A DNA stretch of 64,000 nt. Source: a bacterium (GTDB taxonomy: Bacteria > Chloroflexota > Anaerolineae > Caldilineales > Caldilineaceae). The notes below the pieces were generated by a model. It did no database searches. It was not told where the DNA came from and was given only the letters and a program-made list of their open reading frames with translations. Position numbers and translations under genes: made by a program. Location of the stretch: positions 124,001 through 188,000 of the forward strand of contig WGMT01000024.1 in the NCBI GenBank assembly GCA_016124945.1. Reading direction: 5' to 3'. Positions 2,110 through 63,774 of this stretch are shown here, one piece after another. Position 1 is the first letter of the stretch; each line of letters starts with the position of its first letter.

Positions 2110-3024
2110 ATGAAAGGTCTGTTCCGACTGTTTGCTTTGTTGATCCTTGTCGTTGCTGTGGCAGCCTGTGTGCAGGTTGCACCGGCCCCTGCGCCTGGCG
2201 ATTCGGGCAGTAGTGAAGGTGGCGACGCCGCTGCGCCCGCCGACGATCTGCTGGCCGAAATCATGGACCGTGGCACCATTCGCATCTCCACCGATCCCAA
2301 CTACGAGCCGCAGTCGTTCCTCAATTCCGACGGCGAATTCGTCGGCTTTGATGTGGACGTGGCACGCGAGATCGCAAGCCGCCTTGGTGTGGAAGTGGAA
2401 TTCGTCACCCCCGACTGGGATCTGATCACCGCCGGCAACTGGGGCGGCCAATGGGACATGAGCGTCGGCTCCATGGCCGTCACCACCGGCCGCGACGAAG
2501 TGCTCGAATTCGCCAACCCACCCTACTACTACACCCCGGCCCAGTTTGCCGCCACCACGGCTTCGGGTATCACCACGCTTGAGCAGTTGAATGGCCAGCC
2601 CATCTGTGTGGGCGTCTCCACCACCTACGAAACCTGGCTCAGCGGCGATTTGGAAGCACTGGGCCTGCCCGCCAGCAGCTACTACCACGAGCCGCCCACC
2701 GATGTCACCGTGATCCCGTTGCAGACGGACAACGAATGCGCACAGCAGATCCAGGCCGGTCGTAGCGAATTCAGCGTCTTCCTCACCTCCAACACCGTCG
2801 TAGAAGCCGCCATCCGTGAAGGCGTGGACATCGTCAAGGTCAACGGCGCCGTCTTCTCCGAAAACCTGGCCGCCGCCTTCGACGAAGCCTCCACCAAGGA
2901 CATCACCGGCCTCAAGGACCGTGTCGGCGAGATCATCCAAGAAATGCACGACGACGGCACCCTGAGCGAGATTTCGATGGAATGGTTTGGTGAGGATCTG
3001 ACGATGGATCCGTCGGCGCAGTAG
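2110..3024 (+). CDS. Polar amino-acid ABC transporter substrate-binding lipoprotein
   Basis: A 304-residue SBP_bac_3-type protein (PBP type II fold). It has a lipoprotein signal peptide with lipobox VAAC (Cys20), an acidic/Pro-Ala linker, then the ligand domain (about residues 45-295) starting with ...IRISTDPNYEPQSF. The family delivers polar amino acids or small nitrogen compounds to a permease/ATPase pair. Here the matching permease (5790) and ATPase (6641) lie downstream behind two hydrolase genes. An AGGAG at about 2099-2103 precedes the ATG. A 7-base-unit hairpin element starts 5 bases after its stop codon. Confidence 0.92.
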   Translation: MKGLFRLFALLILVVAVAACVQVAPAPAPGDSGSSEGGDAAAPADDLLAEIMDRGTIRISTDPNYEPQSFLNSDGEFVGFDVDVAREIASRLGVEVEFVTPDWDLITAGNWGGQWDMSVGSMAVTTGRDEVLEFANPPYYYTPAQFAATTASGITTLEQLNGQPICVGVSTTYETWLSGDLEALGLPASSYYHEPPTDVTVIPLQTDNECAQQIQAGRSEFSVFLTSNTVVEAAIREGVDIVKVNGAVFSENLAAAFDEASTKDITGLKDRVGEIIQEMHDDGTLSEISMEWFGEDLTMDPSAQ

Positions 3025-3028
3025 AGAT

Positions 3029-3163
3029 AAATGAGTAAGGAGTAATAAGTAGGGGAAGGGGACATATCGTCACAAATGCTTGCCGTCTCGTTGACGAAGC
3101 GAGCTGCATTCGCGACGACACATACCCTTCCCCTACTCATTATTCATTACTCATTACTCATTT
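3029..3163. repeat. Heptad hairpin element (GAGTAAT family)
   Basis: The left arm 3029-3060 and right arm 3125-3163 are complementary runs of a degenerate 7-base unit (GAGTAAT/GAGTAAG) ending in the same GGGGAAGGG block. The right arm is 39 bases and the left 32, a difference of exactly one 7-base unit. The spacer 3061-3124 is itself weakly palindromic (ACATATCGTCACAAATGC against the reverse complement of 3106-3123, differing mainly by transitions). The element fills the gap between the stop at 3024 and the start at 3193. Confidence 0.8.
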
Positions 3164-3192
3164 CCCTCCCCCTTCTCTGAAACGGAACACCC

Positions 3193-4646: not shown

Positions 4647-4673
4647 CTCGTAGACCCGCACGAGGGCGTGCTC
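4647..4673. repeat. Half copy of the hairpin repeat at 43.1 kb
   Basis: This 27-base stretch matches 43152-43180 except for a 2-base gap and one substitution (shared core TAGACCCGCACG, then GGGCGTGCTC). At 43.1 kb the sequence is the loop and part of the right arm of a 31-bp-stem hairpin; here the left arm is missing. It lies 45 bases before the start of the DDAH-like gene. Confidence 0.6.
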
Positions 4674-4718
4674 ACGCCGCAATTTGTGGAGATTGACACT
4701 CACTTGAAAGGTTTTCCC

Positions 4719-5606
4719 ATGCGACCGATTGGTTCGCAGTCGATGGTGGATGAACTGAACTATGTAATCGTCAAGCACCCGCGCCATTCGCACGTGGATC
4801 AGGCGAATGTCGACGCGCAGTGGCAGGCGCTTAATTATTTGAGCCGTCCTGATTTGGGACAGGTGCTGACCGAGTTTGACGAGTTCGTGTCGCTGCTCAA
4901 CGGTTTCGGCACGGAGATCGGAACGTTGCCGCCGTCCTCGGGCGTGGGATTGGATTCGATCTACACCCACGATCCGGTGGTGATTACGAACAGGGGCGCG
5001 ATTCTATGTACGATGGGCAAGGCGGCGCGCTTGGTTGAGGCCGACGCCTTCGCCGCATACCTGCGCAGCATGGACGTGCCCATCCTGGGCCGCATTGAGC
5101 CGCCCGGCACGCTGGAAGGCGGCGACGTCTGCTGGATCGACGAGCGCACTGTCGCCGTGGGCGAAGGCTACCGCACCAACGCCGAGGGCATTCGCCAATT
5201 TCGTGCGTTGCTGGGCGACGCCGTCGACGAGGTGATCCCCGTGCCGCTGCCCCACTGGAACGGACCCGACGAGTGTCTGCACCTGCTCTCGTTGATTAGC
5301 CCCGTTGACCACGATCTGGCCGTTGTCTACTCGCGGCTGATGCCGGTGCCTTTCCGCCAATGGCTCCTCGCCCGTGGCATCCACCTGATCGAAGTACCCG
5401 ACGAGGAATATGATTCCTTCGCCTGCAACGTGCTGACCGTCTCTCCCGGAAAAGTCATCATGATCGCCGGCAACCCCATCACCCAATCCCGCCTCGAAGC
5501 CGCCGGCGTCGAAGTGTCCACCTTTTCGGGCCAGGATCTCTGCATCAAAGGCGGCGGCGGGCCGACGTGTTTGACGCGACCAGTCCTGCGGACGACTAAC
5601 AGGTGA
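4719..5606 (+). CDS. DDAH/amidinotransferase superfamily hydrolase
   Basis: A 295-residue protein of the guanidino-group-modifying superfamily (dimethylarginine dimethylaminohydrolase, arginine deiminase and relatives). Catalytic elements are visible: YTHDP (Asp85), TLEGGDV (Glu133, Asp136), GYRTN (Arg152), ECLHLL (His188) and the C-terminal nucleophile in GGGPTCLT (Cys284). The expected reaction is hydrolysis of a (methyl)guanidino compound to citrulline or a urea plus an amine; the exact substrate is not decided by these motifs. The start at 4719 has GAAAGG 7 bases upstream. Its stop TGA (5604-5606) is the first three bases of a 7-base-unit array. Confidence 0.85.
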   Translation: MRPIGSQSMVDELNYVIVKHPRHSHVDQANVDAQWQALNYLSRPDLGQVLTEFDEFVSLLNGFGTEIGTLPPSSGVGLDSIYTHDPVVITNRGAILCTMGKAARLVEADAFAAYLRSMDVPILGRIEPPGTLEGGDVCWIDERTVAVGEGYRTNAEGIRQFRALLGDAVDEVIPVPLPHWNGPDECLHLLSLISPVDHDLAVVYSRLMPVPFRQWLLARGIHLIEVPDEEYDSFACNVLTVSPGKVIMIAGNPITQSRLEAAGVEVSTFSGQDLCIKGGGGPTCLTRPVLRTTNR

Positions 5607-5772
5607 CGACGGACGACCGACGACGGACGACCGACGACCGACGACTGGATCGTCATTTACCTTGAGACTTCGTTATCGTTCCTTTTTTGACTTGTACTTG
5701 TTTGCCACACAAAATTGTTCCATTTTAGGTGTAACGTACTGATGGGTGGCTGTCGTCAGTCGTCCATCGTCT
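5604..5772. repeat. Heptad element (NGACGAC family)
   Basis: Six 7-base units of the form NGACGAC run from 5604 to 5645. Three complementary units (GTCGTCN form) lie at 5752-5772, just before the permease ribosome site at 5778-5784. The spacer of about 105 bases is AT-rich and shows no strong inner palindrome. The stop codon of the DDAH-like gene is part of the first unit. Confidence 0.75.
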
Positions 5773-11461: not shown

Positions 11462-12496
11462 ATGTCCCCCACCCAATCTCCCCTCCGCATTGGCATCATC
11501 GGCGCCGGCTGGCCCGGTGAACGGCACACCGAAGGCTTCACCGCCTGCGGCGACGCCGTGGTGACAGCCGTCGCCGATCTGGAAACGACACGCCGTGAAG
11601 CATTTGCCACCCGCTATCACGTCCCCAAACAGTACGCCGATTACCACGATCTACTGGCCGATTCCGAAGTCGATGCCGTAATGATCGCGCTGCCCAATCA
11701 CCTGCACAAACCATCTACGATTGCAGCGTTACAGGCGGGCAAGCATGTCTTCTGCGAGAAGCCGCCTGCCGTCAACACCGCCGAGGCCAGGGAAATGGCC
11801 GATGTCGCCGCCGCCCAAGGACTCGTCCTCGGCTATGCCACCCGCCGTCGCTACAACCCCACCACCGACCGGCTGGCCGAGCGGATCGCCCGTGGCGAAC
11901 TGGGCGAGATCTACCACGCCCGTTCGGTATGGACGCGTAGCTGGGGTGTGCCGCAAGGCGTCGGCGGCTGGTTCGTCGATCCGCTGCGTGCAGGCGGTGG
12001 GGCGCTCATTGACATCGGCATCCACGTCCTCGATCAGGCGTGGTTCCTCATGGGCTGCCCCAAACCGGTGACCATCTCCGGTTCGGTCTTCAACAAATTC
12101 CCCGAACTCACCGGCACCGACGACAGCGCCTTCGCCCTCATCCGCTTCGAAGACGGGCGCAGCCTGCACGTCGAAGCCGCCTGGGTCCTCGCCCAGCCCA
12201 AAGACATTCAAGACGTCCACATCTACGGCACCCAAGGCGGTGCTCGCCTCGACGACGACACGCTGGACTACTACAACGTAGGCCCCGATGGCGCAACCAC
12301 CCTTACGCCTAGATTCCCGCGCGGCCAGGCCGCGTCCTTTGTGGCGATGGCCGTAGACTTCGCCCACGCCGTGCGCACCGGCGGCCAAACCCGCACCAGC
12401 GCCGAACAGGGCGTCCTCTTGATGGCCATGCTGGAGGGGATCTACCGGTCGGGGAAGATAGGGCGGGAGATGGCGGTGGACGACGTTGTTGGATAG
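11462..12496 (+). CDS. Gfo/Idh/MocA family oxidoreductase
   Basis: A 344-residue NAD(P)-dependent dehydrogenase. It has the N-terminal Rossmann motif GIIGAGWPGERH, the family motif FCEKPPAV, and the beta-sheet substrate domain (GGALIDIGIHVLDQAW). The family oxidises or reduces sugars, inositols and related alcohols. AGGAG at 11451-11455 sets the start at 11462; the frame upstream crosses the terminator region. Its stop TAG (12494-12496) is part of the first unit of a TAGTGCG array. Together with the MDR gene at 12648 it may oxidise an alcohol product of the oxygenases (inference). Confidence 0.9.
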   Translation: MSPTQSPLRIGIIGAGWPGERHTEGFTACGDAVVTAVADLETTRREAFATRYHVPKQYADYHDLLADSEVDAVMIALPNHLHKPSTIAALQAGKHVFCEKPPAVNTAEAREMADVAAAQGLVLGYATRRRYNPTTDRLAERIARGELGEIYHARSVWTRSWGVPQGVGGWFVDPLRAGGGALIDIGIHVLDQAWFLMGCPKPVTISGSVFNKFPELTGTDDSAFALIRFEDGRSLHVEAAWVLAQPKDIQDVHIYGTQGGARLDDDTLDYYNVGPDGATTLTPRFPRGQAASFVAMAVDFAHAVRTGGQTRTSAEQGVLLMAMLEGIYRSGKIGREMAVDDVVG

Positions 12497-12594
12497 TGCG
12501 TAGTGCGTAGTACGTAGTACGTAGTACGTAGTACGTAAAGCAAGCCTCCCTATAGCGGCGAAACTATCTTTACGGACTACGCACTACGCACTAT
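12493..12594. repeat. Heptad hairpin element (TAGTGCG/TAGTACG family)
   Basis: ATAGTGCGTAGTGCGTAGT at 12493-12511 is perfectly complementary to 12576-12594. Past this 19-bp stem the left arm carries three extra TAGTACG units before TAAAG, while the right arm goes straight to the matching CTTTA. The arms therefore differ by exactly 21 bases. The element occupies most of the 151-base gap between two co-directional genes. Confidence 0.85.
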
Positions 12595-13756: not shown

Positions 13757-13791
13757 TCGCAACTCGCAATCCGTAATCCGCAACTCGCAAT
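13757..13791. repeat. Single heptad arm (CGCAATT family)
   Basis: Five 7-base units of the form [TC]CG[CT]AA[CT] span 13757-13791 and stop just before the GGAG ribosome site of the next gene. No complementary arm is seen in the gap of about 100 bases, so this is a half element. The same unit family forms a two-arm element at 54.6 kb. Confidence 0.7.
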
Positions 13792-13801
13792 GGAGAAACC
13801 C

Positions 13802-15463
13802 ATGACCATCAAACGCTCAACGATCCTCCCTGTGATCATATTGCTGTTGGGGTTGTTGATCAGCGCCTGTGTGGCGCCGACTGCACCTGCCACCCCAACC
13901 GACGGCACCCCTGCTCCCGCCGAAGAAGCCACTGCCCCCTCGGCTGGTGCAGGCGAAGCAGACACCGTCGCCGATAAAGGCATCCGCAACTTCGTCTACC
14001 GCGACCTGCCCGATCTGGGTGGGCGCAGCGTGGCCGTCGTCACCTCGAACAGCTACCTGCCGCTGAACTTCGTCGATCCCCTCACCGGCGAGGAAGGTGG
14101 TTGGGAGTATGACGCCGTCAAGGAGATCTGCCGCCGCCTCAATTGCACCGTGGAATGGGGCGTCAGCTCCTGGGAAGCCATGATCCCCGCCGTCGCCCAA
14201 GGACAGTTCGACCTGGGCATGGACGGCATCACCATCACCGAAGAGCGCGCCCAGCAGGTCGATTTCTCCGATCCCTACATGACCAGCCAACAGTTTATGC
14301 TGGTGAGCGCCGATGAAGATCGTTTTGCCACGCCCGAAGAGTTCGCCGCCGATGAGTCGCTGCTTGTGGGCGCGCAGACCGGCACCACCGGCTTCTACAC
14401 CGCCGTCTACGACATTTTGGACGGTGACGAAGCGAACCCCCGCGTCATCGTCTTCGACGACTTCGGCGCAACGGTGCAGGCGCTCATCGCCGGTGACATC
14501 GACCTCGTCCTTGTAGACGCGGCCAGTGGGCGCGGCTACATCGGCGCCAATCCAGAGGCGTTGAAAATCGTGGGCGACGCCCTCGCCACCGAAGACTTCG
14601 GCTTCATCTTCACGCCTGGCTCCGAATTCGTGGAACCTTTCAACGCAGCCCTGGCCACCATGAAGGCCGACGGTTACACGGCTTACCTGGACAGTCGTTG
14701 GTTCTTCCTCACCAACACCAACGGCGAGGACATCTACGATCAACTGCCCGACCTGGGCGGCCAGACCATCGCCGCCGTCACCTCCAACGACTACCCGCCC
14801 CTAAGCACCATGGATCCGCAGACCGGCATCGAAGGTGGCTGGGAGTATGATGTGGTCAACGAGATCTGCCGCCGCTTGAATTGCACCGTGGAATGGGGCC
14901 TCTCTTCGTGGTCGGCCATGATTCCGGCTGTCTCCGAAGGCCAGTTCGATGTGGGCATGGACGGCATCACCATCACCGAAGAACGCGCCCAGCAGGTCGA
15001 TTTCTCTATTCCGTACATGACCAGCCAGCAGTTTATGCTGGTGGCGGCCGATGAAGATCGCTTCAGCACACCTGAGGAGTTTGCCGCCGACGAGTCGCTG
15101 TTGGTGGCCGCACAGACGGGCAGTACCGGCTTTTACACCGCCATCTACAATGTCCTCGACGGCGACGAAAGCAACCCCCGCGTCCTCATCTTCGACGACT
15201 TCGGGGCGATGGTGCAAGCGCTCATCGCCGGTGACGTTGACCTTGTCCTCGTGGATGCGGCCAGCGGGCGCGGTTACATCGGCGCCAACCCCGATGCTCT
15301 GAAGATCGTGGGCGATGCCCTCGCTACCGACAACTTCGGTTTCATCTTCCAACTTGGCTCCGACCTCGTCGAACCCTTCAACGCCGCCATCGAAACCATC
15401 CAGGCCGACGGCTACGGCGAGTATCTGAACACGAAGTGGTTCTTCCTCTACAGCCCGAATTAG
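13802..15463 (+). CDS. Tandem-domain ABC substrate-binding lipoprotein
   Basis: A 553-residue lipoprotein (lipobox LISAC, Cys23) that carries two complete SBP_bac_3 domains in a row. The domains repeat with a 738-base (246-residue) period. The first starts near 14003 (DLPDLGGRSVAVVTSN) and the second near 14741 (QLPDLGGQTIAAVTSN). They are nearly identical over long stretches, e.g. GGWEYD, EICRRLNCTVEWG and GQFD.GMDGITITEERAQQ. Normal family members have one domain. This points to a recent in-frame duplication giving a two-site binding protein for the permease at 15595. GGAG at 13792-13795 precedes the ATG. Confidence 0.92.
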   Translation: MTIKRSTILPVIILLLGLLISACVAPTAPATPTDGTPAPAEEATAPSAGAGEADTVADKGIRNFVYRDLPDLGGRSVAVVTSNSYLPLNFVDPLTGEEGGWEYDAVKEICRRLNCTVEWGVSSWEAMIPAVAQGQFDLGMDGITITEERAQQVDFSDPYMTSQQFMLVSADEDRFATPEEFAADESLLVGAQTGTTGFYTAVYDILDGDEANPRVIVFDDFGATVQALIAGDIDLVLVDAASGRGYIGANPEALKIVGDALATEDFGFIFTPGSEFVEPFNAALATMKADGYTAYLDSRWFFLTNTNGEDIYDQLPDLGGQTIAAVTSNDYPPLSTMDPQTGIEGGWEYDVVNEICRRLNCTVEWGLSSWSAMIPAVSEGQFDVGMDGITITEERAQQVDFSIPYMTSQQFMLVAADEDRFSTPEEFAADESLLVAAQTGSTGFYTAIYNVLDGDESNPRVLIFDDFGAMVQALIAGDVDLVLVDAASGRGYIGANPDALKIVGDALATDNFGFIFQLGSDLVEPFNAAIETIQADGYGEYLNTKWFFLYSPN

Positions 15464-15464
15464 G

Positions 15465-15587
15465 AAAGGGATTGGGGATTGGGGATTCGGGACTGGGGAC
15501 TGGGGATTGGGTAGACAAAGACTTGCCGCTGAAGTAAGTCTTGCTGTCTACCCAATCCCCAGTCCCCGATCCCCAGTCCCTAATCCC
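15465..15587. repeat. Heptad hairpin element (GGGGATT family)
   Basis: The left arm (about 15468-15516) and right arm (15546-15587) are complementary runs of GGGGATT/GGGGACT-type units. The left is longer by one 7-base unit. The stem continues inward through GTAGACA/TGTCTAC and AAGACTT/AAGTCTT, so the whole element can form one long hairpin. It starts 2 bases after the binding-protein stop and ends 7 bases before the permease ATG. Confidence 0.85.
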
Positions 15588-15594
15588 CTCCATT

Positions 15595-16449
15595 ATGACG
15601 ACACTTGCTCCGTCCCGCGGCCGCCGCTCGCCTGCCGATCTCTTCGCCCGACTGCCCTACTGGCTGATTGTGGCGGTGTTGATCGGCATTTTTATGCTGT
15701 GGGAAATCCTCACAGACGCCGACTATCGCATCATTTTTAATGCCGTCTCGCGTGGCATCGGGGTGACGATCTACGTCTGCATCGTCGCCTATGTCTTCGC
15801 CGTGCTGACGGGGCTGCTCCTTGGGCTAATGCGTATGTCGACCAATCGGGTGATCCGCGAGGTGAGCACCTTTTACATCGAGATCGTGCGTGGCGTGCCC
15901 ATGTTGGTGATCCTCTATTACGTGGCTTTTGTGGGCGCGCCCGTGATTGTGGACGTAATCAACTGGGGCGGCCTACAGCTCACCACGCTTGGGATTCCAC
16001 AACTTGGCACGCCGCTTGCCGAATTCAGCATCCGCCGCCTCGATTTTACCTCGCGCGCTATCCTGGCACTGGTGATTGGCTACAGCGCCTTCATTGCCGA
16101 GATCTTCCGCGCCGGCATTGAGAGCATCGAACGTGGACAGATGGAAGCGGCGCGGAGTCTGGGCATGTCCTACTGGCAGGCCATGCGTTTTGTGATCCTG
16201 CCACAAGCTGTTCGACGTGTGCTGCCACCACTGGGCAACGATTTTGTGGCCATGCTCAAAGATTCAGCGCTCGTTTCCGTCCTCGGTGTACCCGACATCA
16301 CACAGATGGGAAAGGTCTACGCCGCGGGTACCTTCAAATTTTTCGAGACCTACAACGTCGTCGCCTTCCTTTATCTGGTGATGACGGTGGCACTGTCACT
16401 TGTGGTGCGCTGGATCGAACAGCGTATGCCCTCGGGGAATGAGCGCTAG
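15595..16449 (+). CDS. Polar amino-acid ABC transporter permease (second)
   Basis: A 284-residue HisM/GlnP-type permease with multiple membrane segments, an EAA loop ([20 protein letters not shown]) and the [20 protein letters not shown] block. It is the likely partner of the tandem binding protein; no ATPase gene follows, so it may borrow the one at 6641. No Shine-Dalgarno is visible before ATG 15595, because the right arm of the hairpin element runs up to 7 bases before it. The frame stays open to a TTG at 15541 through the repeat, so the true start is uncertain. Confidence 0.88.
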
Positions 16450-34889: not shown

Positions 34890-35129
34890 TTAGACGTCGG
34901 TCGGGGTCTGTCCCGGCTTGCGTAACCGCTTCGCCTGTTCAAACTCGGCCCGCAACTCGGCCTCGCGCTGTGCGGCGGCTTTGCGTCCTTCTTCCAAAGC
35001 TCTGTCCACCCGAGATTGATAACCCTTGTCGAAGCTGGTGTCACGCGCCGGCGCCATGACATATCCGACTGCCAGCCCCACAGCAATCCCCACCACTGTG
35101 CCCAAGAAGAGATTGATACTTTTGCTCAT
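34890..35129 (-). CDS. YtxH-like small membrane protein
   Basis: A 79-residue protein with one N-terminal membrane or glycine-zipper segment (FLGTVVGIAVGLAVGYVMAP) and a charged helical tail, the layout of YtxH/general-stress proteins. It is convergent with mutM, with 16 bases between the stops and no visible terminator. The function is unknown. Confidence 0.75.
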   Translation of the reverse strand: MSKSINLFLGTVVGIAVGLAVGYVMAPARDTSFDKGYQSRVDRALEEGRKAAAQREAELRAEFEQAKRLRKPGQTPTDV

Positions 35130-35220
35130 GTCATTCCTCTTTGCCGAAAATGGATACTACTCTTGACTCTGCCTATTGTCGCGTAGGTCCGCAGCGCTGG
35201 CAAACTTCTCTAACAGACTG

Positions 35221-35340
35221 GTTGTAATTCAAAGTTGGGGCGAACAGTGCCTGGCACGGGCCAAGCGCACATACGTTGACGGGTGCCCCACTGGCCCGTG
35301 CCAGGCACTGTGGCGAGCGCGCCCCCAACTTGAATTACAC
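35221..35340. repeat. REP-like quasi-palindrome (AGTGCCTGGCAC family), copy 1
   Basis: Left arm 35221-35263 and right arm 35292-35340 are complementary apart from small indels. They share TGTAATTCAA, a G-run and CAGTGCCTGGCACGGGCCA. A shorter copy lies at 37428-37497. No transposase gene is nearby. Confidence 0.75.
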
Positions 35341-35381
35341 CCAACAGAATTGCACACCCACTGCTGTAACATCGTCTAAAC

Positions 35382-35432
35382 GAAAAATAGGAGAGAACAC
35401 CGGTTCTGAAACCTGGTTCTCTCCTATTTTTC
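35382..35432. terminator. Terminator in the ytxH-pspC gap
   Basis: GAAAAATAGGAGAGAAC (35382-35398) pairs with GTTCTCTCCTATTTTTC (35416-35432); the inner part is partly paired. The A/T ends give a T-run on both strands. It probably ends the minus-strand PspC gene at 35521. Confidence 0.85.
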
Positions 35433-35520
35433 ACAACTTTCACTTTGGGCTTCTTGTCACTCGATGCAGGACCCGACAAATCTGCCTGGATTGTGACCGA
35501 ATCTGCCGCCAGTTTCGATG

Positions 35521-43238: not shown

Positions 43239-44234
43239 ATGACAAATGAATCTGCGGTCGAATCAGCGCCATCGACCAAACCGCGGTTTCGACTGGGTTT
43301 CCCAGTGAAAGTGATCGGCGCGCCCAATCTGCCATCACATGACAGCCGACGCTGGCACAACAATCCCCACCTCAGCGTTAGTCTGGCCTATTTGCGCGAT
43401 ATTTTTGTCTACCTGGGGCAACGGGGCATCAAGTTCTACCGAATGGCCGGCCAACTGGCGCCCTACCTCACCCACCCCGCACTGCCTGCTTTTCACCGCC
43501 AACTCCAAGAATGTGATCTCGAACTGGCCGCGTTGGGCGATCTGGCGCGCCAGGACGGTCTACGCCTTACGCTGCATCCCGGCTTCTTTGTGCAACTCAA
43601 CAGCCCCGATGAAAGCTGGGTGCAACGCTCGGTGACTGAGTTGGCCGCCTCTGCTGAACTGTTGGCGCGTATGGGGCTGAGCGACGAATCGGTGATCGTG
43701 GTCCACGTGGGAGGCGTCCACGGTGATGTGCTTGCGGGGCGCGAACGCTTTGTGCGCCAGGTCAATCTACTCCCCGAAGCTGTGAAGAACCGTCTTGTGT
43801 TGGAACACGATGATCGTCGCTATCACCTGCAAGATGCGCTCTGGATCTACCAGCGCACCGGACTACGGATCGTCTTCGATGTGCTGCACCACCGTTGTTT
43901 CGATCCTGTGGACATGCCATTGGTGGACGCATTGCGGTTGGCGCTTTCCACCTGGCCACAGACACAACGCCCCAAGATCCACATGAGCAGCCCGCGTACC
44001 GAAGTACGTACCCTTGTGCGTCATGGCGGGCTGATCCTACAACCGCCGCTGCCCAACCAGCACAGCGACTTTATCAACCCCTTCGAAGTCATCGATCTGC
44101 TCAGCCACGCCATGCGCCTGGGCCTGCGTCCCTTCGACGTGATGCTCGAAGCCAAGGCCAAAGACGTCGCCCTCCTGCGTCTACGCGAGCAGATTAAGCG
44201 GTTCGCGCCGAAGTTGGGGGCGGTGGTGGGGTGA
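43239..44234 (+). CDS. uvdE: UV damage endonuclease UvdE
   Basis: A 331-residue UVDE TIM-barrel nuclease that nicks DNA 5' to UV photoproducts and abasic sites. Family landmarks are RLTLHPGFFVQLNSP, VIVVHVGGVHGD, RLVLEHDDRRY with metal-binding Glu/Asp, IVFDVLHHRCF, KIHMSSPR and the late MLEAKAKD. The N-terminal 18 residues are a variable extension. With mutM and the LexA-type box it adds to a repair theme. A heptad array starts 3 bases after the stop. Confidence 0.93.
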   Translation: MTNESAVESAPSTKPRFRLGFPVKVIGAPNLPSHDSRRWHNNPHLSVSLAYLRDIFVYLGQRGIKFYRMAGQLAPYLTHPALPAFHRQLQECDLELAALGDLARQDGLRLTLHPGFFVQLNSPDESWVQRSVTELAASAELLARMGLSDESVIVVHVGGVHGDVLAGRERFVRQVNLLPEAVKNRLVLEHDDRRYHLQDALWIYQRTGLRIVFDVLHHRCFDPVDMPLVDALRLALSTWPQTQRPKIHMSSPRTEVRTLVRHGGLILQPPLPNQHSDFINPFEVIDLLSHAMRLGLRPFDVMLEAKAKDVALLRLREQIKRFAPKLGAVVG

Positions 44235-44237
44235 ATG

Positions 44238-44341
44238 TAATGCGTGATGCGTAATGCGTGATGCGTGATTCGTTAACGGTATTGCAGCGCCATTGGGAAC
44301 CAATTGGGTTCACCAATTATGCATTACGAATTACGCATTAC
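44238..44341. repeat. Heptad hairpin element (TAATGCG/TGATGCG family)
   Basis: Six 7-base units (TAATGCG, TGATGCG and variants) run from 44238 to 44279. The complementary arm is 44313-44341, with four units. The spacer contains CAATTGGG/CCATTGGG repeats. The element lies between uvdE and the next gene, whose in-frame upstream extension runs through the right arm. Confidence 0.8.
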
Positions 44342-45183: not shown

Positions 45184-46122
45184 ATGAAAATTTCATCTGG
45201 ACATCAAAGCAAGTTCTTGCCGTTGTTCGTTTTTGCGTTTGTGGGGATAGCGATTCTCTACTCAGCACAGTTGGCACTGGCGGTGGACAATCCATCGTCG
45301 CCACAACAGAGCATTCCCGGTGGCCCGGCGGTGATCTACTTGCCTGCCGTTTACGATACCGAGCCAACCGCCACACCCGAACCGACAGCGACACCCCAAC
45401 CCACGGCCACTCCGGAGCCCACAGCCGAACCGACGCCTACCGACATTCCCGCCCTGACTTGCCCCACCTCTTCGGAACGTCAGTACACGTTGATCCCTGT
45501 GTTGCCACCGCCCGCGGACCACCCCGACGAATTGCACGGGGATCTGAACCTGGCGTTGCGCAGCTATGTGCCTGTCTCTGCCGCGTTGACCATTGTGGAC
45601 ATCGACGGCCCGTCAGACGGCGATCCGCCCTTCTTCCCCGCCATGTTTGGGGACGCACGTACCCCTGCTTTCACCTCGGCGCACCGCGTCTACGATTGGA
45701 ACTGGGCTTGTGGCGAGCGCGGCTGCCGCGGGGACAACCTGACTGCACGGGAAGTCACGCTGTTGGGGATGCGCACCGGCGAGGGCGAAGCTATCTCCTT
45801 CCCCAGCCGTGGCGCGCAGATCTACGGTGGCGGCTTTACGGCGTTGGTCCTTTACGCGTCGGAAGAGCGCATCACCCTCGGCTATACCCGCGACGACAGC
45901 GTTGCACCCGGCTACGCCGTCCATTTGGAAGGAGTCTGTGTTGATCCCAACCTGTTGGCGCTCTACCGGCAGGCCAACCAGGCCGGGCGCGGCAATCTGC
46001 CTGCACTGCGCAACGGTGAAATCCTGGGCACTGTGAAAGTGAACGAAGTGCTTGGCGCCATCCGCGATCGCGGCGATTTTATGGATCCGCGTGCGCGCAA
46101 AGATTGGTGGCGTGGCAGGTGA
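45184..46122 (+). CDS. Secreted protein with Pro-Thr linker
   Basis: A 312-residue protein with an N-terminal signal or anchor segment (LFVFAFVGIAILYSAQLALA), a 40-residue linker built of PTATPEPTATPQ-like repeats, and a C-terminal domain of about 220 residues containing four cysteines (WACGERGC among them). Its function is not recognised. AGGATC lies before the ATG. Its stop TGA leads straight into a GGGGATT-family stretch, and a strong hairpin follows. Confidence 0.72.
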   Translation: MKISSGHQSKFLPLFVFAFVGIAILYSAQLALAVDNPSSPQQSIPGGPAVIYLPAVYDTEPTATPEPTATPQPTATPEPTAEPTPTDIPALTCPTSSERQYTLIPVLPPPADHPDELHGDLNLALRSYVPVSAALTIVDIDGPSDGDPPFFPAMFGDARTPAFTSAHRVYDWNWACGERGCRGDNLTAREVTLLGMRTGEGEAISFPSRGAQIYGGGFTALVLYASEERITLGYTRDDSVAPGYAVHLEGVCVDPNLLALYRQANQAGRGNLPALRNGEILGTVKVNEVLGAIRDRGDFMDPRARKDWWRGR

Positions 46123-46294
46123 TTGGGGAGTGGGGCTAAAGGCTGTACTCGCGTAGAAATTAGAAAGTGAATAGTGTTGTTGATCGGGGAAACACAGTGC
46201 TGAATCTGTGTTTCCCCGATCCGTGTTTTCAGACTAGTCCACGTACCCAGAAGACGAAGTCTCCCCAGTCCCTAGTCCCCGGTCCCCAATCCCT
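46120..46294. repeat. Degenerate heptad element (GGGGATT family) between convergent genes
   Basis: The left stretch TGATTGGGGAGTGGGG (46120-46135) includes the stop codon of the 45184 gene. The right arm (46261-46294, CCCCAGTCCC-like units) includes the last codons of the convergent gene. The left arm has only two clear units, so it seems eroded. Confidence 0.65.
46182..46221. terminator. Bidirectional terminator-like hairpin
   Basis: GATCGGGGAAACACAG (46182-46197) pairs perfectly with 46206-46221 around an 8-base loop and is followed by CGTGTTTTC. It lies inside the spacer of the heptad element and separates convergent genes. Confidence 0.75.
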
Positions 46295-47300
46295 TTTCCG
46301 CCGTTAAATATTCGTGCAGCCAGCCGGGGACAGCGTCGGCCTGTTCAGTGCGGTAAGGCTCTTGAAGATTCGAGACGACCAGGTACCAGGTGAGGGCGCG
46401 GTTGACCATGCCGATGCGGTTGGCCAGGGCGAAGGCCGCTTGTAGATCGGCCCACCCGGCATAGCGAGACCACGGACGCAGGTAGGCGTCGCGCAGTTGA
46501 TCGAGCGCCGGGTCGCCGGGCTGGAGTTGCATGGTGTAGGCGGCGCTGCGCAGGCCAACCACCAGCGAGAAGAAGGGATGCGCAACACAGCTTTCGCCCC
46601 AATCGGCGAAGGTGATGCGGCCGATGCTGTCTGTGTCGTCAAAGAAGATATTGCCGTCGTGAAAATCGTCGTGGTGTAGCGTTTCGGGGATGCCGTAGTT
46701 GGCGAGTTCGGTACAGAGCTGACGGAAACGGGGCAGATGCGCCTGCAATTCGTTGTACTCGTTGGCGGAGAGGCCGTCTTCGTGTTCGATGCAGAGCGCG
46801 TCCACGTCTTCGAGCAGCCGCGCCAGTTGATCAGGCAACGTGACCAAGCCTCGATCCAAGACGTTGAGATCAAGGAGTTGCTGGGCGCGCGGGATCATGT
46901 CGACTTGTACCTGGGCGTAAAGCGTGAGGCAGCGTTGCCAGCGTTGGCCCTGTCCTTCGTGCTGTACAAGACTGCGCAGCGAGACGCCGCTGCCCCGCAT
47001 CAGAAACCATCCACTCTCTAGATCGGTTGCCAACACCACGGGCATGCAGTCCGGACGCCAACGCGCCAGCGATTGTGTCAGCGCTGCTTCATGTCCAAGC
47101 ATCGGCGCAGTGGCTTTGAAATAGAGGATGCCCTGGTTGGTGGGCACTTGCAGCACCGTCGACCAGGGGCGGACGTGCGGCTGTGTCACCTCGTCCACCA
47201 ACTGCAACCCGAGAAGTGTCACCGTCTCATCGATCCACGAAACGGCACGCTTGATCCATCCTGGTTGCGACCACGGCAAAGAAACGGGCGGATTGGTCAA
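46272..47300 (-). CDS. Aminoglycoside phosphotransferase/choline kinase-like protein
   Basis: A 342-residue APH-fold protein. The catalytic loop is LHHDDFHDGNIFF (HxDxxxxN) and the metal-binding DFG-like triad is in FADWGE. The N-lobe contains ILYFKA with the ATP-binding Lys. Substrates of such proteins range from antibiotics to choline and sugars; none is indicated. The start is TTG at 47300 with GAGGAT upstream. The last six residues (GLGTGD) are encoded by the right arm of the heptad element, and the natural end is probably near YLTAEK. Confidence 0.82.
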   Translation of the reverse strand: MTNPPVSLPWSQPGWIKRAVSWIDETVTLLGLQLVDEVTQPHVRPWSTVLQVPTNQGILYFKATAPMLGHEAALTQSLARWRPDCMPVVLATDLESGWFLMRGSGVSLRSLVQHEGQGQRWQRCLTLYAQVQVDMIPRAQQLLDLNVLDRGLVTLPDQLARLLEDVDALCIEHEDGLSANEYNELQAHLPRFRQLCTELANYGIPETLHHDDFHDGNIFFDDTDSIGRITFADWGESCVAHPFFSLVVGLRSAAYTMQLQPGDPALDQLRDAYLRPWSRYAGWADLQAAFALANRIGMVNRALTWYLVVSNLQEPYRTEQADAVPGWLHEYLTAEKGLGTGD

Positions 47301-49639: not shown

Positions 49640-49700
49640 GGGCTAGGCTAGAAGACAGTTGTCCTCACGTCAATTGTTGTAGGTTGGCGCATAGCTGGAC

Positions 49701-49716
49701 ACTACGCACTACGCCT
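49701..49716. repeat. Heptad remnant at the aminotransferase stop
   Basis: ACTACGCACTACGCC is two units of the TAGTGCG family on the minus strand. The TAG stop of the aminotransferase gene (49711-49709) is the start of one unit. No second arm was found nearby. Confidence 0.55.
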
Positions 49717-50902
49717 CAAAATACCCCTTCAGCGCCGCCAAACCGGCATGGATTGCAGGCACATCGATCCCCGAGTAGGCCAGGCGAATGAATTGCTGTG
49801 TTTCCCTCGCCACAGGACGGCCGAAGTGTTTACGTGTGCAGAACGAGACATTGGCCTCAGTCAATGCGCCCCGCATTAGGTCGTTAACATCTGTCAACCC
49901 CTTGCGCGCCATGATTTTGGTGACATTGGGGAAGAGGTAGAAGGTGCTTTCGGGTGCTGCAATGGAAATGCCGTCAATGTTGTTGAGCCCGGCCACGGCA
50001 GCGTCACGGCGGCGGCGCAACTCGGCCAGAATGGCATCTGGGCCACTGGTGTCGCTCTGAATCGCCCCCACCATGGCACGCTGGATAAAGTGTGTGGTGC
50101 AGCTTTCTGCATTCGTGTTGAACTTGTTGATCACGTCGATCACGGCTTTTGGCCCGATGGCCGCGCCACAACGCCAGCCGGTCATGGCGAAGCGCTTGGA
50201 ACAGGTGTAGAGGATCACCGTGCGCTCGTACATGCCGGGAAGATTGACGATGCACAACGGCTCGCCGCTATAACGCATTTCGTGGTAGGCGTCGTCGCTC
50301 ATCACCCACAGATCGTGTTCGATGGCAATCTGCGCCAGCGCTTCCATCTCTTGGCGTGTCGATTGCGCACCGGTGGGATTCTGATAGTTGTTGTAGATCA
50401 GCACCTTGGTGCGTGGCGTAATCGAGTGGCGGATGGCCTTCATGTCTAGATCAAAGCCGCTTTCGGTTTCGATGTAGCCGTAGGGCACCGCCACACCGCC
50501 CTGATACTCGATCTGCGATTCGTAGATGGGGTAGCCAGGATTGGGATAGAGCACCTCATCGCCAGGATCCATCACCGCGGCCAGGAACTTGCCGATTACC
50601 GGTTTGCCGCCGGGCTGGATCGAGACATGCTCCGCGCTGTAGTGGACACCGCGTTTGCTGCCCACGTCGGCGGCAAGTTCGGCGCGCAGTTCGGCGATTC
50701 CTGCGCCGGCGCAGTAGCCGGTGTAGCCGTCGGCGATGGCTTTCACCGTCGCTTCTACAATGTTGGCCGGTGTAGGAATGTTGATATCGCCCAGGTGAAA
50801 GGGATAGACCTTGTGGCCCTTGGCCGCCCACTCAGCCGCCGCCGCCGACACGGCAAAGGCTGTCTCTGTGCCCAATTTATCCAACTGCGATGCTAATTTC
50901 AT
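49709..50902 (-). CDS. Class I/II PLP aminotransferase
   Basis: A 397-residue fold-type I aminotransferase. Landmarks are PGYPIYESQIEY, NYQNPTGAQ with the cofactor-binding Asn, SDDAYHEMRY with the ring-pairing Asp, and CSKRFAMTGWRCG with the PLP Lys. It resembles aspartate/alanine-type enzymes; the substrate is open. The start at 50902 is the first Met of the frame. A terminator lies 70 bases beyond the stop. Confidence 0.92.
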   Translation of the reverse strand: MKLASQLDKLGTETAFAVSAAAAEWAAKGHKVYPFHLGDINIPTPANIVEATVKAIADGYTGYCAGAGIAELRAELAADVGSKRGVHYSAEHVSIQPGGKPVIGKFLAAVMDPGDEVLYPNPGYPIYESQIEYQGGVAVPYGYIETESGFDLDMKAIRHSITPRTKVLIYNNYQNPTGAQSTRQEMEALAQIAIEHDLWVMSDDAYHEMRYSGEPLCIVNLPGMYERTVILYTCSKRFAMTGWRCGAAIGPKAVIDVINKFNTNAESCTTHFIQRAMVGAIQSDTSGPDAILAELRRRRDAAVAGLNNIDGISIAAPESTFYLFPNVTKIMARKGLTDVNDLMRGALTEANVSFCTRKHFGRPVARETQQFIRLAYSGIDVPAIHAGLAALKGYFEA

Positions 50903-50982: not shown

Positions 50983-51080
50983 GATTGGGGGGTTAGGGAT
51001 CGGGGACTGGGGATCGGGTAGAGCAGACTCGCTCTACCCGATCCCCAGTCCCTAATCCCCAGTCCTTAATCCCCAATCCC
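50983..51080. repeat. Heptad hairpin element (GGGGATT family)
   Basis: Left arm 50983-51024 and right arm 51031-51080 are complementary GGGGATT/GGGGACT-type arrays closing on GTAGAGC/GCTCTAC with a 6-base loop. The right arm is longer by about one unit. It ends 1 base before the stop codon of the minus-strand permease (51082-51084). Confidence 0.85.
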
Positions 51081-51081
51081 A

Positions 51082-52320
51082 TCAACTCCGAACGGCGCGG
51101 AACAGGCTCTGCCAGTTCAGCGAAGAACTCGAAAGCAGTGTGTCGGCGCGGAAGAAACGGGCGGCAAGTAGGATGGCCAGGTAGGTGGTGATGGCCAGTG
51201 CCGCAACACCGACAACCGGCTGCCACAGTGGCACGTCGGTGGCCGCCAGCCGGGCGATCATCGACGGCGGCGACGTGAGCGGGAAGAGGCTCAGCGTGAC
51301 GGCCAGCGTGCTATCCGGCGCGTTGGCGATGAATCCGTTTAGCCACACCGGGATAATCAGTGGTAGGAGCACGGCAAAGGAGAACTGATTGGCCTCGCGT
51401 GATGTCGGTGCCAACGCGCCCAACGCGCCCATTAACGAGGCGTAGAGGATGAAGCCCAACAGCACATACACCATTGTCCACGCGATGAAGCCCGGCGGAA
51501 GCTGTAGCGACACCGCCGTGTCTAACAGCGTACTCGACTGTTCGGCAAAGAGCAGACTTGCCGTCAACCAGAGGCTCATCTGCACCAACGCCACTACACA
51601 CAGCCCCAGGATCTTGCCCAGCATCAACTCGCGAGGACGTAGGCTGAGCAACAGCACTTCGACAGTGCGGTTTTCTTTCTCGCGCGAGACGCTGCGCAGC
51701 ATGTAGCCACTGCTCATCACCAATACAAAGAAGAGCAGCATCGTTGCTACAATCGCCACAATGGAGGCCGGTGGTGTCATAACGGTAGGGCCGGCATCGG
51801 CGTTCTCTGTTGTCGGCACTGTCAATGGCGATTGTTGCATCTCGCGCAGCGGATCGCTTACCAACGCCCAGCGACTGTCATCGGCCCCAATCAGGTTGTA
51901 GTTGAGAATCGTCTGCAGCAGCCCTTGATTGGTAACGGCCATCGGCTGGTAATCGCGCTGGACCAACGTGATCAACCCACTCTCCACATAGTCCACTGCG
52001 ATGACGTAATACTCTGCGATCTCGCCTGCTTCCAGCGCCGACATGGCTGCCGCTTCGGAAGGGTAGGCTTGTACCGTCTCCGCGGGGATGTCGGACGGCA
52101 GCGTCTCGATCAGCCCAGAAAGGTCGACATAGGTTGTTGCCGTGGGCTCGACACTCTCCTGGCGCTCTTCCGCGTTGCCGCGACCGTTATCGGCAAGGAA
52201 TTGACTCCCAAAAGTCAACACCAGGATGAAGAGTGGGAAGAAGATTGTCAGCATCCAGAACGACGGTTTCGACAACAGTGTACGAATTTCAAAGGTGGCA
52301 ACCGTAAACACATTGCGCAT
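51082..52320 (-). CDS. ABC-2 type transporter permease (NatB-like)
   Basis: A 412-residue ABC-2 permease. An N-terminal membrane segment (PSFWMLTIFFPLFILVLTFG) is followed by a large outer loop of about 150 residues and a cluster of membrane segments in the C-terminal half, with SREKENRTVEVLLLSLRP between. This is the NatB/YhaP-type layout for export or Na+ extrusion. It is the intact partner of the frameshifted permease just upstream (stop 52327) and of the ATPase at 53514. Confidence 0.9.
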   Translation of the reverse strand: MRNVFTVATFEIRTLLSKPSFWMLTIFFPLFILVLTFGSQFLADNGRGNAEERQESVEPTATTYVDLSGLIETLPSDIPAETVQAYPSEAAAMSALEAGEIAEYYVIAVDYVESGLITLVQRDYQPMAVTNQGLLQTILNYNLIGADDSRWALVSDPLREMQQSPLTVPTTENADAGPTVMTPPASIVAIVATMLLFFVLVMSSGYMLRSVSREKENRTVEVLLLSLRPRELMLGKILGLCVVALVQMSLWLTASLLFAEQSSTLLDTAVSLQLPPGFIAWTMVYVLLGFILYASLMGALGALAPTSREANQFSFAVLLPLIIPVWLNGFIANAPDSTLAVTLSLFPLTSPPSMIARLAATDVPLWQPVVGVAALAITTYLAILLAARFFRADTLLSSSSLNWQSLFRAVRS

Positions 52321-54630: not shown

Positions 54631-54710
54631 ACTGCGAACTGCGGTTGTGGTGAACACAACAAGCACTCGATTATTGAATCTTCAACCGCAATTCGCAATC
54701 CGCAATTCGC
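54631..54710. repeat. Heptad hairpin element (CGCAATT family)
   Basis: The right arm is four 7-base units (54683-54710, AATTCGC type). The left arm 54631-54647 (ACTGCGA, ACTGCGG) is the complement with transitions. The spacer is 35 bases. The right arm ends 2 bases before the TAG stop of the minus-strand hydrolase gene (54715-54713). The unit family is the same as at 13757-13791. Confidence 0.75.
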
Positions 54711-54712
54711 CT

Positions 54713-57067
54713 CTACTCTACCCGGTCAAACTGATATTCCAACGCCCCAGCCCCAATAACGACAATGGGTGCGCCTTCTTCGTTCATCTGTAGGTCGACG
54801 TTGAGGCCGGCGAGTGGCATGTCGTAAGCCAGATACTCGTTCTCTTCGGCGTCTTCGCTCAGATTGGCGCGCAACTCAGAGACAAAGTCCCCTGCGTCGA
54901 GGCGTAGCATCCCATCTTCGAGCCGTAGTTCGATCTCGTTCAGGGCAGCATTGGTGTAGCGACCCAAGAAGGGTTCCACCGCGGCTGGATCAACGTCTCC
55001 CAAATCCTCCAACATGCCTTCAATGGAGTTGCGCTGATACTCATTGGCAAAGTTGACCTGTTCGTCGATCTCGCTTTCCTGCGCATAGGCGAGTTCGAGC
55101 AGACGGGTGGCGACGGCTCCATTGAAGAGATTTGTACCGCGACCATTGGTTAGAACGGTGATGCCGAAGTTGGCCGCAGGCACAAAGAGCAGCTCAGAGG
55201 TGAAGCCGAAGGTATTGCCGCCGTGGCTGATGGTCTGCAAACCCTTGTATTCGCCGATCATCCAGCCGAGGCCATAGCTCGTGTCCGCAGAGATGTCGAC
55301 CTGGGGTTGCCATGTCTCCATCAGATTTTCTTCAGACACAATCCGCTCACCGTTGGGTGCAACACCGCGGTTCAGCTCGGTGATCAGGTATTGCGCCATG
55401 TCTTCTGAAGTGGACCAGTGCGCGCCGGCTGGGGCGACGGGCAGGAGCAGCATTTCCATTTCGAAAGGAATCGGGTAGAACTCACCGGCCAGGTTTAGGC
55501 CGAATGGCTGCGCATAGTTGTCGCGGTCCATCACCTCGGCGAAAGACAGGGTGGTGTTGTCCATGCCCATGGGTGCAAGGATGCGATCTTCCAGCGATTG
55601 CGTGTAGGCGTCGAAGAGATTGCCCCATTCGCCGCCGTCGGCAGCACCTGCCACATAGCCACCCGTGCCGACCATCTGGTTGCTGTATTGGAAGGCTTCG
55701 CCAAAGTCGGTGAAGAACTCGTATGATTCCAGCTCTTCCACCACGTCTTCGGCCGTCTGGCTGTTGGCATTGAAGATCAACTCAAAGTCGCGGCGTGGCA
55801 CACCGGTACAGGCACACACAAGGTTGCGCACGGTCAATTGCTGCGTCAGTTCCGGATCGGCTACGGCGAACTCGGGCAGGATCTTAACCACTGGTGTATC
55901 CCAATCCATCAGGCCGGCGTCAACCAGCGCTGCCATGAGCATCGTCGTCATGGTTTTGCCGGTGGAACCGATCATGAAGTGGGTCTGCGGCGTAATCGGT
56001 TCGTCGCTGTCGGGGCCGCGGGCGCCGAAACCTTCACTGTAGACGACTTCGCCGTCGCGCACAATGGAGATGGCGGCAGCAGGAACGTCAAGCTGTTCCA
56101 TCTTTTCGATGACATACGCTTCGAACTCGGCCAGCAGGTCGTCGTCGAAGGCTACAGGCTCAACGCCGGTGAGATCTTCGTCTTCGATCGCGGCGATGTC
56201 ATAGCCGGTGCCGATGATCTGGATCTGTGACACACGACGCTGGATCGTGGCAAGGTCGCCGTCAAGTAGGAGTACGTAGGCGATCCCTTCGTAGAGATCC
56301 GCGCCCGCGGTGACAAGGCGATTGTCGTCTTCGGTGTCGTAGACGATGCTGACTGTCTCTTCGATACCGCGCATGGGCGGTGTGCTGGTGGTCTCCTGGC
56401 GCTCCAACGCAAAGGACGGGTCCACGATCTGCCACGCAGCTTCGATGCCGTTCTCGGCGCTCTCGGCAGGCAGGGCCAACACATAGACCTTCAGATCGCC
56501 GTCGGGCGCAGTGAGGACGGCGTATTCATCGAAGGTTTCCAGCGTCCAGTTGGTGGGCACTGGGGCGGAGAAGAGACCGGCGGGATCTGTATAGGTTTCC
56601 TTTACAGCGGCTGTGGGGGCGGCGGCTTCCAGAGCGGCATCCACCGCGGCAAGGGTGAAGGTCCCCTCCACACCAGATTGGCTGAAGGTGCCGCTGATCA
56701 CGCCCTCTTCGAGTATGCCGTCAAAAACAGCCTCTTGTGGGCCTTCAAGCATGGCAAAGGAAACGGCTGGATCGTCAAAGCGGATGTTGTGCAGGGGCAG
56801 ATCGGCTGCACCTTGTTGTGGAATGTCGATGGTGCCGGTGAGGGTGTCACCTTCGCCGGTGAACTCAACTATAATCTCCAGTTCAACATTCATCACCGCA
56901 ATGCTGCCCTGCCAACTTCCCGGTAGCCCTGTTCGAGAGGCATCTACAGGCTGTGGCGTGGTCTGTTCCGCTGTCACAGGCGGCGTGATAGGCATCTGTA
57001 CGGGCAGCGCGCAGCCTGCCAGCAACGAGGCAATCAACAGAACAAAAATGATTCGCTTGACTTTCAT
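54713..57067 (-). CDS. Beta-lactamase-family serine hydrolase lipoprotein
   Basis: A 784-residue lipoprotein (lipobox LLAGC). The N-terminal domain (residues about 45-140, GSWQGSIAVMNVELEIIVEF to GTFSQSGVEGTF) is shared with the next upstream gene. A middle domain (about 155-295) follows, then a class C beta-lactamase/DD-peptidase-like domain with the SxxK motif in GSTGKTMT, YSN in FQYSNQ and HGG in SHGGNTFGF, then a C-terminal beta domain. It probably acts on peptides or wall material outside the membrane. AAAGGAG precedes ATG 57067. Confidence 0.88.
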   Translation of the reverse strand: MKVKRIIFVLLIASLLAGCALPVQMPITPPVTAEQTTPQPVDASRTGLPGSWQGSIAVMNVELEIIVEFTGEGDTLTGTIDIPQQGAADLPLHNIRFDDPAVSFAMLEGPQEAVFDGILEEGVISGTFSQSGVEGTFTLAAVDAALEAAAPTAAVKETYTDPAGLFSAPVPTNWTLETFDEYAVLTAPDGDLKVYVLALPAESAENGIEAAWQIVDPSFALERQETTSTPPMRGIEETVSIVYDTEDDNRLVTAGADLYEGIAYVLLLDGDLATIQRRVSQIQIIGTGYDIAAIEDEDLTGVEPVAFDDDLLAEFEAYVIEKMEQLDVPAAAISIVRDGEVVYSEGFGARGPDSDEPITPQTHFMIGSTGKTMTTMLMAALVDAGLMDWDTPVVKILPEFAVADPELTQQLTVRNLVCACTGVPRRDFELIFNANSQTAEDVVEELESYEFFTDFGEAFQYSNQMVGTGGYVAGAADGGEWGNLFDAYTQSLEDRILAPMGMDNTTLSFAEVMDRDNYAQPFGLNLAGEFYPIPFEMEMLLLPVAPAGAHWSTSEDMAQYLITELNRGVAPNGERIVSEENLMETWQPQVDISADTSYGLGWMIGEYKGLQTISHGGNTFGFTSELLFVPAANFGITVLTNGRGTNLFNGAVATRLLELAYAQESEIDEQVNFANEYQRNSIEGMLEDLGDVDPAAVEPFLGRYTNAALNEIELRLEDGMLRLDAGDFVSELRANLSEDAEENEYLAYDMPLAGLNVDLQMNEEGAPIVVIGAGALEYQFDRVE

Positions 57068-59380: not shown

Positions 59381-59404
59381 TGGGGGAATATCCTTTCGTA
59401 CATG

Positions 59405-59503
59405 GGGATTGGGGATTGGTGATTGGGCAGCGATTGGGCGATTAAACGATTGGGAGATCGTGTACAGGATCTGAAATCGCCCAATCACCAATCACCAATC
59501 CCT
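59405..59503. repeat. Heptad hairpin element (GGGATTG/GTGATTG family)
   Basis: The left array 59405-59443 and right array 59475-59503 are complementary (GATTGGG and GATTGGTG-type units). The TAG stop of the FtsX-type gene (59504-59502) is part of the right array. The left end lies 25 bases from the start of the small protein gene. Confidence 0.8.
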
Positions 59504-63591: not shown

Positions 63592-63774
63592 TGACGACAG
63601 ACAACGGACGACGGAGGCCAGATGACGGACGACAGCAGAAGTGACTTCGCATGTCACCTGCAAACCTGCACCTTGCAACAGTGGGCCACACTGCTTAACT
63701 CAATGACATTGAGTACACTCATGCAGCTACGACACGAACGTCGTCCGTCGTCTGTCGTCCGTCGTCTGTTGTCA
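63592..63774. repeat. Heptad hairpin element (NGACGAC family)
   Basis: The left array 63592-63633 has six units (GGACGAC, AGACAAC and variants). The right array 63740-63774 has five complementary units. The spacer holds small hairpins (CTCAATGACATTGAG at 63700-63714 among them). The right array is inside the coding frame of the ATPase and encodes its tail. The unit is nearly the same as at 5604. Confidence 0.85.

Follow-up and report, generated by a model that had tools for sequence, protein, structure and literature searches.

Paired heptamer arrays beside stop codons in a Caldilineaceae draft genome: tight spacers, array-supplied stops and a smaller unexplained part

The window analyzed here, a 64,000-nucleotide stretch (G000:C94:124001-188000) with a GC content of 58%, is part of the 8.74 Mb draft genome G000 from the Caldilineaceae, whose contamination is estimated at 9%. 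Its spacers contain tandem arrays of 7-base units, and the usual anatomy is a left G-rich arm, a core and a right, inverted C-rich arm (Table 1). A hairpin or a further repeat can form the core. Gene calling relied on a simple caller based on codon usage, and gene starts are therefore approximate. Among known RNA families, only a tRNA was found in the window. The earlier note had described stop codons embedded in or abutting these arrays. The stops at 5604-5606, 12494-12496, 49709-49711 and 46120-46122 (the last within GGTGATTGGGG) were all verified, as were the short gaps between arrays and the stops at 3024, 15463, 44234, 51082 and 54713. The stop at 59502-59504, also proposed to be part of a repeat unit, does abut an array but is offset by +1 from the exact array (TAG-GGATTGGTGATT; here and below, the hyphen marks the end of the stop) and is a degenerate unit at best.

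Table 1. Array elements of the window and their position relative to neighboring genes
Feature	Position	Strand	Relation to genes and remarks
Left arm, AATGAGT-type array	3030-3051		~5 nt past stop of 2110-3024 (solute-binding protein)
Right arm, inverted partner of 3030-3051	3134-3162
Left arm, NGACGAC array	5604-5645		First unit TGACGAC contains TGA stop 5604-5606 of 4668-5606 (arginine deiminase-like)
Right arm GTCGTCAGTCGTCCATCGTC, inverted partner of 5604-5645	5752-5771		Read from sequence
Left arm, TAGTGCG/TAGTACG array	12494-12537		First TAG (12494-12496) is the stop of 11462-12496
Right arm, inverted partner of 12494-12537	12571-12593
Left arm, GGGGATT/GGGGACT array	15468-15511		4 nt past stop of 13790-15463 (solute-binding protein)
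Right arm, inverted partner of 15468-15511	15551-15588		6 nt ahead of ATG at 15595 (permease)
Left arm, ATGCGTG/ATGCGTA array	44237-44273		2-5 nt past stop of 43305-44234
Right arm, inverted partner of 44237-44273	44315-44341
Short degenerate left arm GGTGATTGGGGAGTGGGG	46118-46135		Overlaps TGA stop 46120-46122 of 45184-46122; read from sequence
Right arm, GGGGACT type	46262-46293	reverse	Provides TAG stop and GLGTGD tail of 46272-47222
Short TAGTGCG-type array	49700-49714	reverse	Contains TAG stop 49709-49711 of 49709-50902
Left arm GGGATCGGGGACTGGGGATCGGGTAGAGC	50996-51024		Inverted repeat
Right arm, AATCCCC-type array	51031-51080		1 nt from reverse-strand stop of 51082-52320
CGCAATT array	54687-54710		2 nt from reverse-strand stop of 54713-57067
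Left arm, GGGGATT/GGTGATT array	59403-59426
Right arm, inverted partner of 59403-59426	59481-59500		Abuts reverse-strand TAG of 59502-63572 (FtsX-like)
Left arm, degenerate NGACGAC array	63592-63633		Upstream of 63572 start; read from sequence
Right arm, GTCGTCN array, inverted partner of 63592-63633	63739-63773

The arrays were surveyed in 446 kb of the genome (set 1) and in 800 kb of held-out, independent DNA from the same genome (set 2). At a score of at least 14, the 446 kb yielded 38 period-7 tandem arrays and a resampled control of the same dinucleotide composition yielded none; period 8 was weaker than period 7, and the multiples 14 and 21 followed. Arrays of periods 7 and 8 are overwhelmingly intergenic (87/95 in set 1 and 164/176 in set 2). 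The order of paired arms is strongly constrained: in set 2 we counted 36 G-then-C, 6 GG and 5 CC pairs and a single C-then-G pair, so that the reversed order hardly occurs. Among the unit families are GGGGATT/GGTGATT/GGGGACT, NGACGAC, TAGTGCG, AATGCGT, AATGAGT and AGCGTTG. G-tracts are present in GGGGATT units and absent from TAGTGCG, AATGCGT and NGACGAC units, which behave alike. Most arms have no fixed GTAG or CGTC tag and are tandem 7-mers of varying family. Other inverted repeats, of CAGGTGCGACGCACTGG, CAGTGCCTGGCACGGGCC, GTAGGATGGGTTCCGAC and GGAGAGAGCACGCCCACGTGCGG types, were seen in the same spacers (C26 and C94 spacers; window region 34935-35500) and look like REPs. Inverted pairs with a period of 8-10 bases were seen as well (ACACGGATT and CCGCAAAGACGCAAAGG repeats in G000, e.g. 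at C26 30700, 92272 and 124773) and may belong to the same element class as the heptamer arrays.

The distances of arrays to stop and start codons, the check proposed in the earlier note, were analyzed in both sets. Under the simple null, arrays are placed uniformly in the same spacer, and an array is near a stop if it starts within 6 bp of it. In set 1, 29 of 91 array starts were near a stop (11.2 expected), almost all of them belonging to the G-rich arm. For this arm alone the counts were 27/47 (7.4 expected) in set 1 and 63/91 (7.6 expected) in set 2, which bears out the proposed non-random location of the elements at gene 3' ends. C-rich arms showed no stop excess (2/44 and 4/85 within 6 bp in sets 1 and 2, respectively); this asymmetry reflects the anatomy, in which G-richness belongs to the 5' arm. 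In set 1, start codons showed no excess of nearby array starts (6/83, 8.2 expected).

The space available to an element turned out to be small. Orthologous spacers without arrays in related genomes measure only 13 nt (in G023, all of it ribosome-binding site) and 36 nt (in G007), and an element placed in such a spacer must touch the stop. In a second null, which also assumes uniform placement, the element could lie anywhere in the residual spacer, with 15-20 nt left before the next start as a guard for the ribosome-binding site. Accounting for spacer length and this guard raised the expectation from 12.4 to 16-17 of 31 in set 1 (20 observed) and from 15.8 to 24-27 of 55 in set 2 (40 observed). 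The excess over the guarded null had p ~0.04-0.07 in set 1, and 0 of 5000 draws reached it in set 2. Short spacers thus account for much of the stop bias, and a significant remainder is left in the larger set. This remainder could reflect targeted insertion at stops or terminator regions, as the earlier note had suggested, where an enzyme or microhomology-guided copying would put the element at TGA or TAG. We regard such targeting as unlikely: short spacers explain much of the effect, and arrays are also found far from stops and in divergent spacers. Nor did we find an associated transposase. Across 150 genomes, the number of Y1 transposase genes showed no relation, by inspection, to the number of arrays: G174 has 104 array matches and no Y1 match, G108 has eight Y1 matches and no array match, and G000 itself has three Y1 matches. 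A Y1 transposase was therefore rejected as the driver of the arrays.

The junction between stop and array in the GACGAC family speaks for targeting and partly against it. Of the 15 GACGAC arrays near a stop, ten begin precisely at the TGA (TGA-CGAC) and two more have TAG-ACGAC, the G of the stop coinciding with the G of the unit; none of the 15 starts one or two units upstream of the stop. However, among 26 distinct T-first GACGAC arrays from the whole genome, the TGA is an in-frame stop in 14 and not a coding-frame stop in the other 12. The T-first arrays whose TGA is no stop suggest that TGACGAC can by itself form the end of an element, in-frame cases then being favored by selection; alternatively, the stop may be targeted or provide microhomology. 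The same junctions bear on growth of the array from a seed, also raised in the earlier note, in which a stop-containing 7-mer would be tandemly duplicated outwards. In-register stops are indeed common, being found in 17/23 stop-near TAGTGCG/TAATGCG arrays and 11/15 GACGAC arrays, and the stop is the first unit in ten of the latter. Yet a duplicated unit should carry the stop with it, and T occurs in only 9 of 126 internal GACGAC-family units. Seed growth would also leave unexplained both the inverted second arm and the sharing of unit families by unrelated genes and genera, and some of these families do occur in divergent spacers. We consider it very improbable.

Many stops are supplied by the arrays themselves. 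In 42/131 cases the stop lies 3-20 nt into the G-rich array that follows, with offsets spread roughly evenly. Here the reading frame enters the array and terminates within it, which leaves the proteins with tails such as VIGD*, GTGD* or GIGDL*. Roughly even offsets are as expected for a frame that enters a 7-base unit with a stop triplet. In TAGTGCG-type arrays, the stop falls at the first, second and third unit in seven, five and one cases, respectively (offsets -3, -10 and -17). Comparison with orthologs revealed displaced stops (IVKKQGIGDL* versus IVD*; VVIGD* versus IVL*), and two distant homologs of gene 46272-47222 end without its GLGTGD tail, the end of the same-genus copy being ambiguous; for gene 11462-12496, no relative scored above the threshold. 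Stops outside arrays are native, as in the FtsX-like protein, whose end EALRYE* is shared by almost every relative whether or not an array is present. Array-overlapped stops comprise 29 TAG, 20 TGA and 10 TAA (background 257, 292 and 249), a modest skew. An avoidance of TAA in array-supplied stops, indicated by 0/15 in set 1, was not replicated in set 2 (10/44).

Across related genomes, the stop stays in place while the arrays of an orthologous spacer can belong to different unit families or be absent. At L064:10377, where the TAG is at a constant position, GGGGAT-type arrays occur in G007 and G027, CGCAGATT-type repeats in G032 and G019, and no array in G023. Similarly, the spacer between the arginine deiminase and permease genes has a TGACGAC array in G000, TGACGATT in G001, a ATAGAACGC element in G014 and nothing in G007. 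Five species retain GACGRC-type arms at a convergent site, with a loop ranging from 12 nt (G019) to more than 140 nt (G007, where it contains a REP-like repeat). The two arms may evolve in concert, which is suggestive only, as sites are few and arms were picked as the best inverted repeat. The nearest array-bearing genomes are 80-86% identical, too distant for an empty/filled junction or a target duplication to be read, and GGNGAYT-related arrays are patchy within the class (39/150 genomes).

Several side observations were also made. REP-like repeats are found in loops of array pairs whose arms, without the loop insert, are shared by relatives (G007 contig C16, ~389.8-391.5 kb, and orthologs), which gives the impression of mobile repeats nested within hairpins. 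One array lies within a coding region (L055:1005-1042; G007 contig C16, site e9), with coding sequence conserved on either side; its units are of GGGGATT type in two related genomes and of CGCAGATT type in three. G030, G032 and G034 contain dozens of copies of a ~114 bp repeat (L055:11386-11499), which is probably a small mobile element.

The paired arms could also have a selected role in RNA, with a 3' hairpin kept beside the stop and tuning translation termination, mRNA decay or transcription end, by analogy with proposals for E. coli REPs. A strong inverted repeat (score of at least 16) was present in 85 of 234 spacers and in none of the shuffled ones. In the window, solute-binding-protein genes precede two elements (3025-3192 and 15464-15594), and one element lies directly before a permease gene; E. 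coli REPs in such placement are thought to protect the upstream mRNA. The arrays may have a REP-like role near stops; REPs within 15 nt of a stop have been reported to stall ribosomes, according to work cited in PMC12306157. However, G.U mismatches between arms were not preferred over A.C mismatches on the sense strand (149 versus 139 in total; the first wobble-pair count gave 44 A.C mismatches), and thus there is no sign of RNA pairing maintaining the arms. RNA hairpin selection as read from a wobble-pair excess was rejected on these counts. The element is, moreover, missing from the same spacer in some related genomes, and overall we find an RNA role rather doubtful.

In our assessment the probable explanation, with considerable room for doubt, is that intergenic heptamer elements settle and turn over in short spacers, and that their adjacency to stops results mainly from where an element survives. 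The element, a G-rich tandem array followed by a core and an inverted C-rich array, would settle and turn over inside short gene-to-gene spacers, where the free space would be the few bases from the stop to the next ribosome-binding site or the gap between two facing stops. Its outer arm would consequently touch the stop, as seen in related genomes. Where an array covers the last codons, the reading frame would enter it, as seen for many genes; as 7 is not divisible by 3, any frame is closed after at most three units if the unit carries a stop triplet, and the array supplies a stop and a tail of a few residues. Arrays may lengthen and change by slippage, and DNA-level copying between the arms, e.g. 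template switching at the hairpin, may keep them matched. Two results count against settlement in short spacers as the explanation: the residual excess over the guarded null, and the exact TGA start of ten of the 15 stop-near GACGAC arrays, which a simple run-in does not predict. A bolder and decidedly unlikely proposal has the paired heptamer arrays, with their interchangeable units, written into spacers by a dedicated process. Anchored on the G of the stop (TGA-CGAC, TAG-ACGAC), this process would also rewrite the two arms jointly, and species would thereby exchange families while the site stays fixed. Overall, the positional bias splits three ways, into tight spacers, arrays supplying stops and tails, and a smaller unexplained part.

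Heptamer arrays near stops have been described before. Rehm et al. 2015 (PMC4692102) reported G-rich heptamers near or overlapping stops on the sense strand, namely the GGGAATC repeats of Xanthomonas, often found as two arrays in convergent orientation, and the GGGGA(C/T)T repeats of Nostoc. The arrays described here share with them the intergenic location, the sense G-rich strand near or over the stop and the depletion between divergent genes, and with those of Xanthomonas also the convergent pairs (36 G-then-C pairs in set 2). In contrast to one unit type per genome, discussed as G-quadruplexes, several families occur here, among them TAGTGCG and AATGCGT, which lack G-tracts and take the same position, and different species have exchanged families at one spacer. 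The bias does not require G-quadruplexes, the property proposed for these best-studied relatives. The GTAG/CGTC REP elements with their RAYT transposases (Di Nocera et al. 2013, PMC3733652), the termini of which often provide a TAG stop, are likewise intergenic inverted repeats by gene 3' ends with the stop supplied by the element. However, a REP is a palindrome of 20-40 bp that carries a fixed tag, whereas the elements studied here are tandem 7-base units, mostly tagless, and do not follow Y1 transposase genes. The TAACTGA repeats of Beggiatoaceae (MacGregor 2015, PMC4679880) are also intergenic heptamer arrays, some of which overlap upstream stops because the unit stops all frames; unlike the present arrays, they have a single unit, lie mostly towards start codons and almost never form an inverted pair. 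Thus, stop-proximal inverted heptamers (PMC4692102) and stop-supplying REPs (PMC3733652) are already known, and what the present case adds is the Chloroflexota lineage, the units without G-tracts and the unit swapping at fixed spacers. Most unusual is the exchange of unit families while the orthologous spacer stays fixed; it offers a way to approach the origin of heptamer arrays, which are over-represented in many bacteria.
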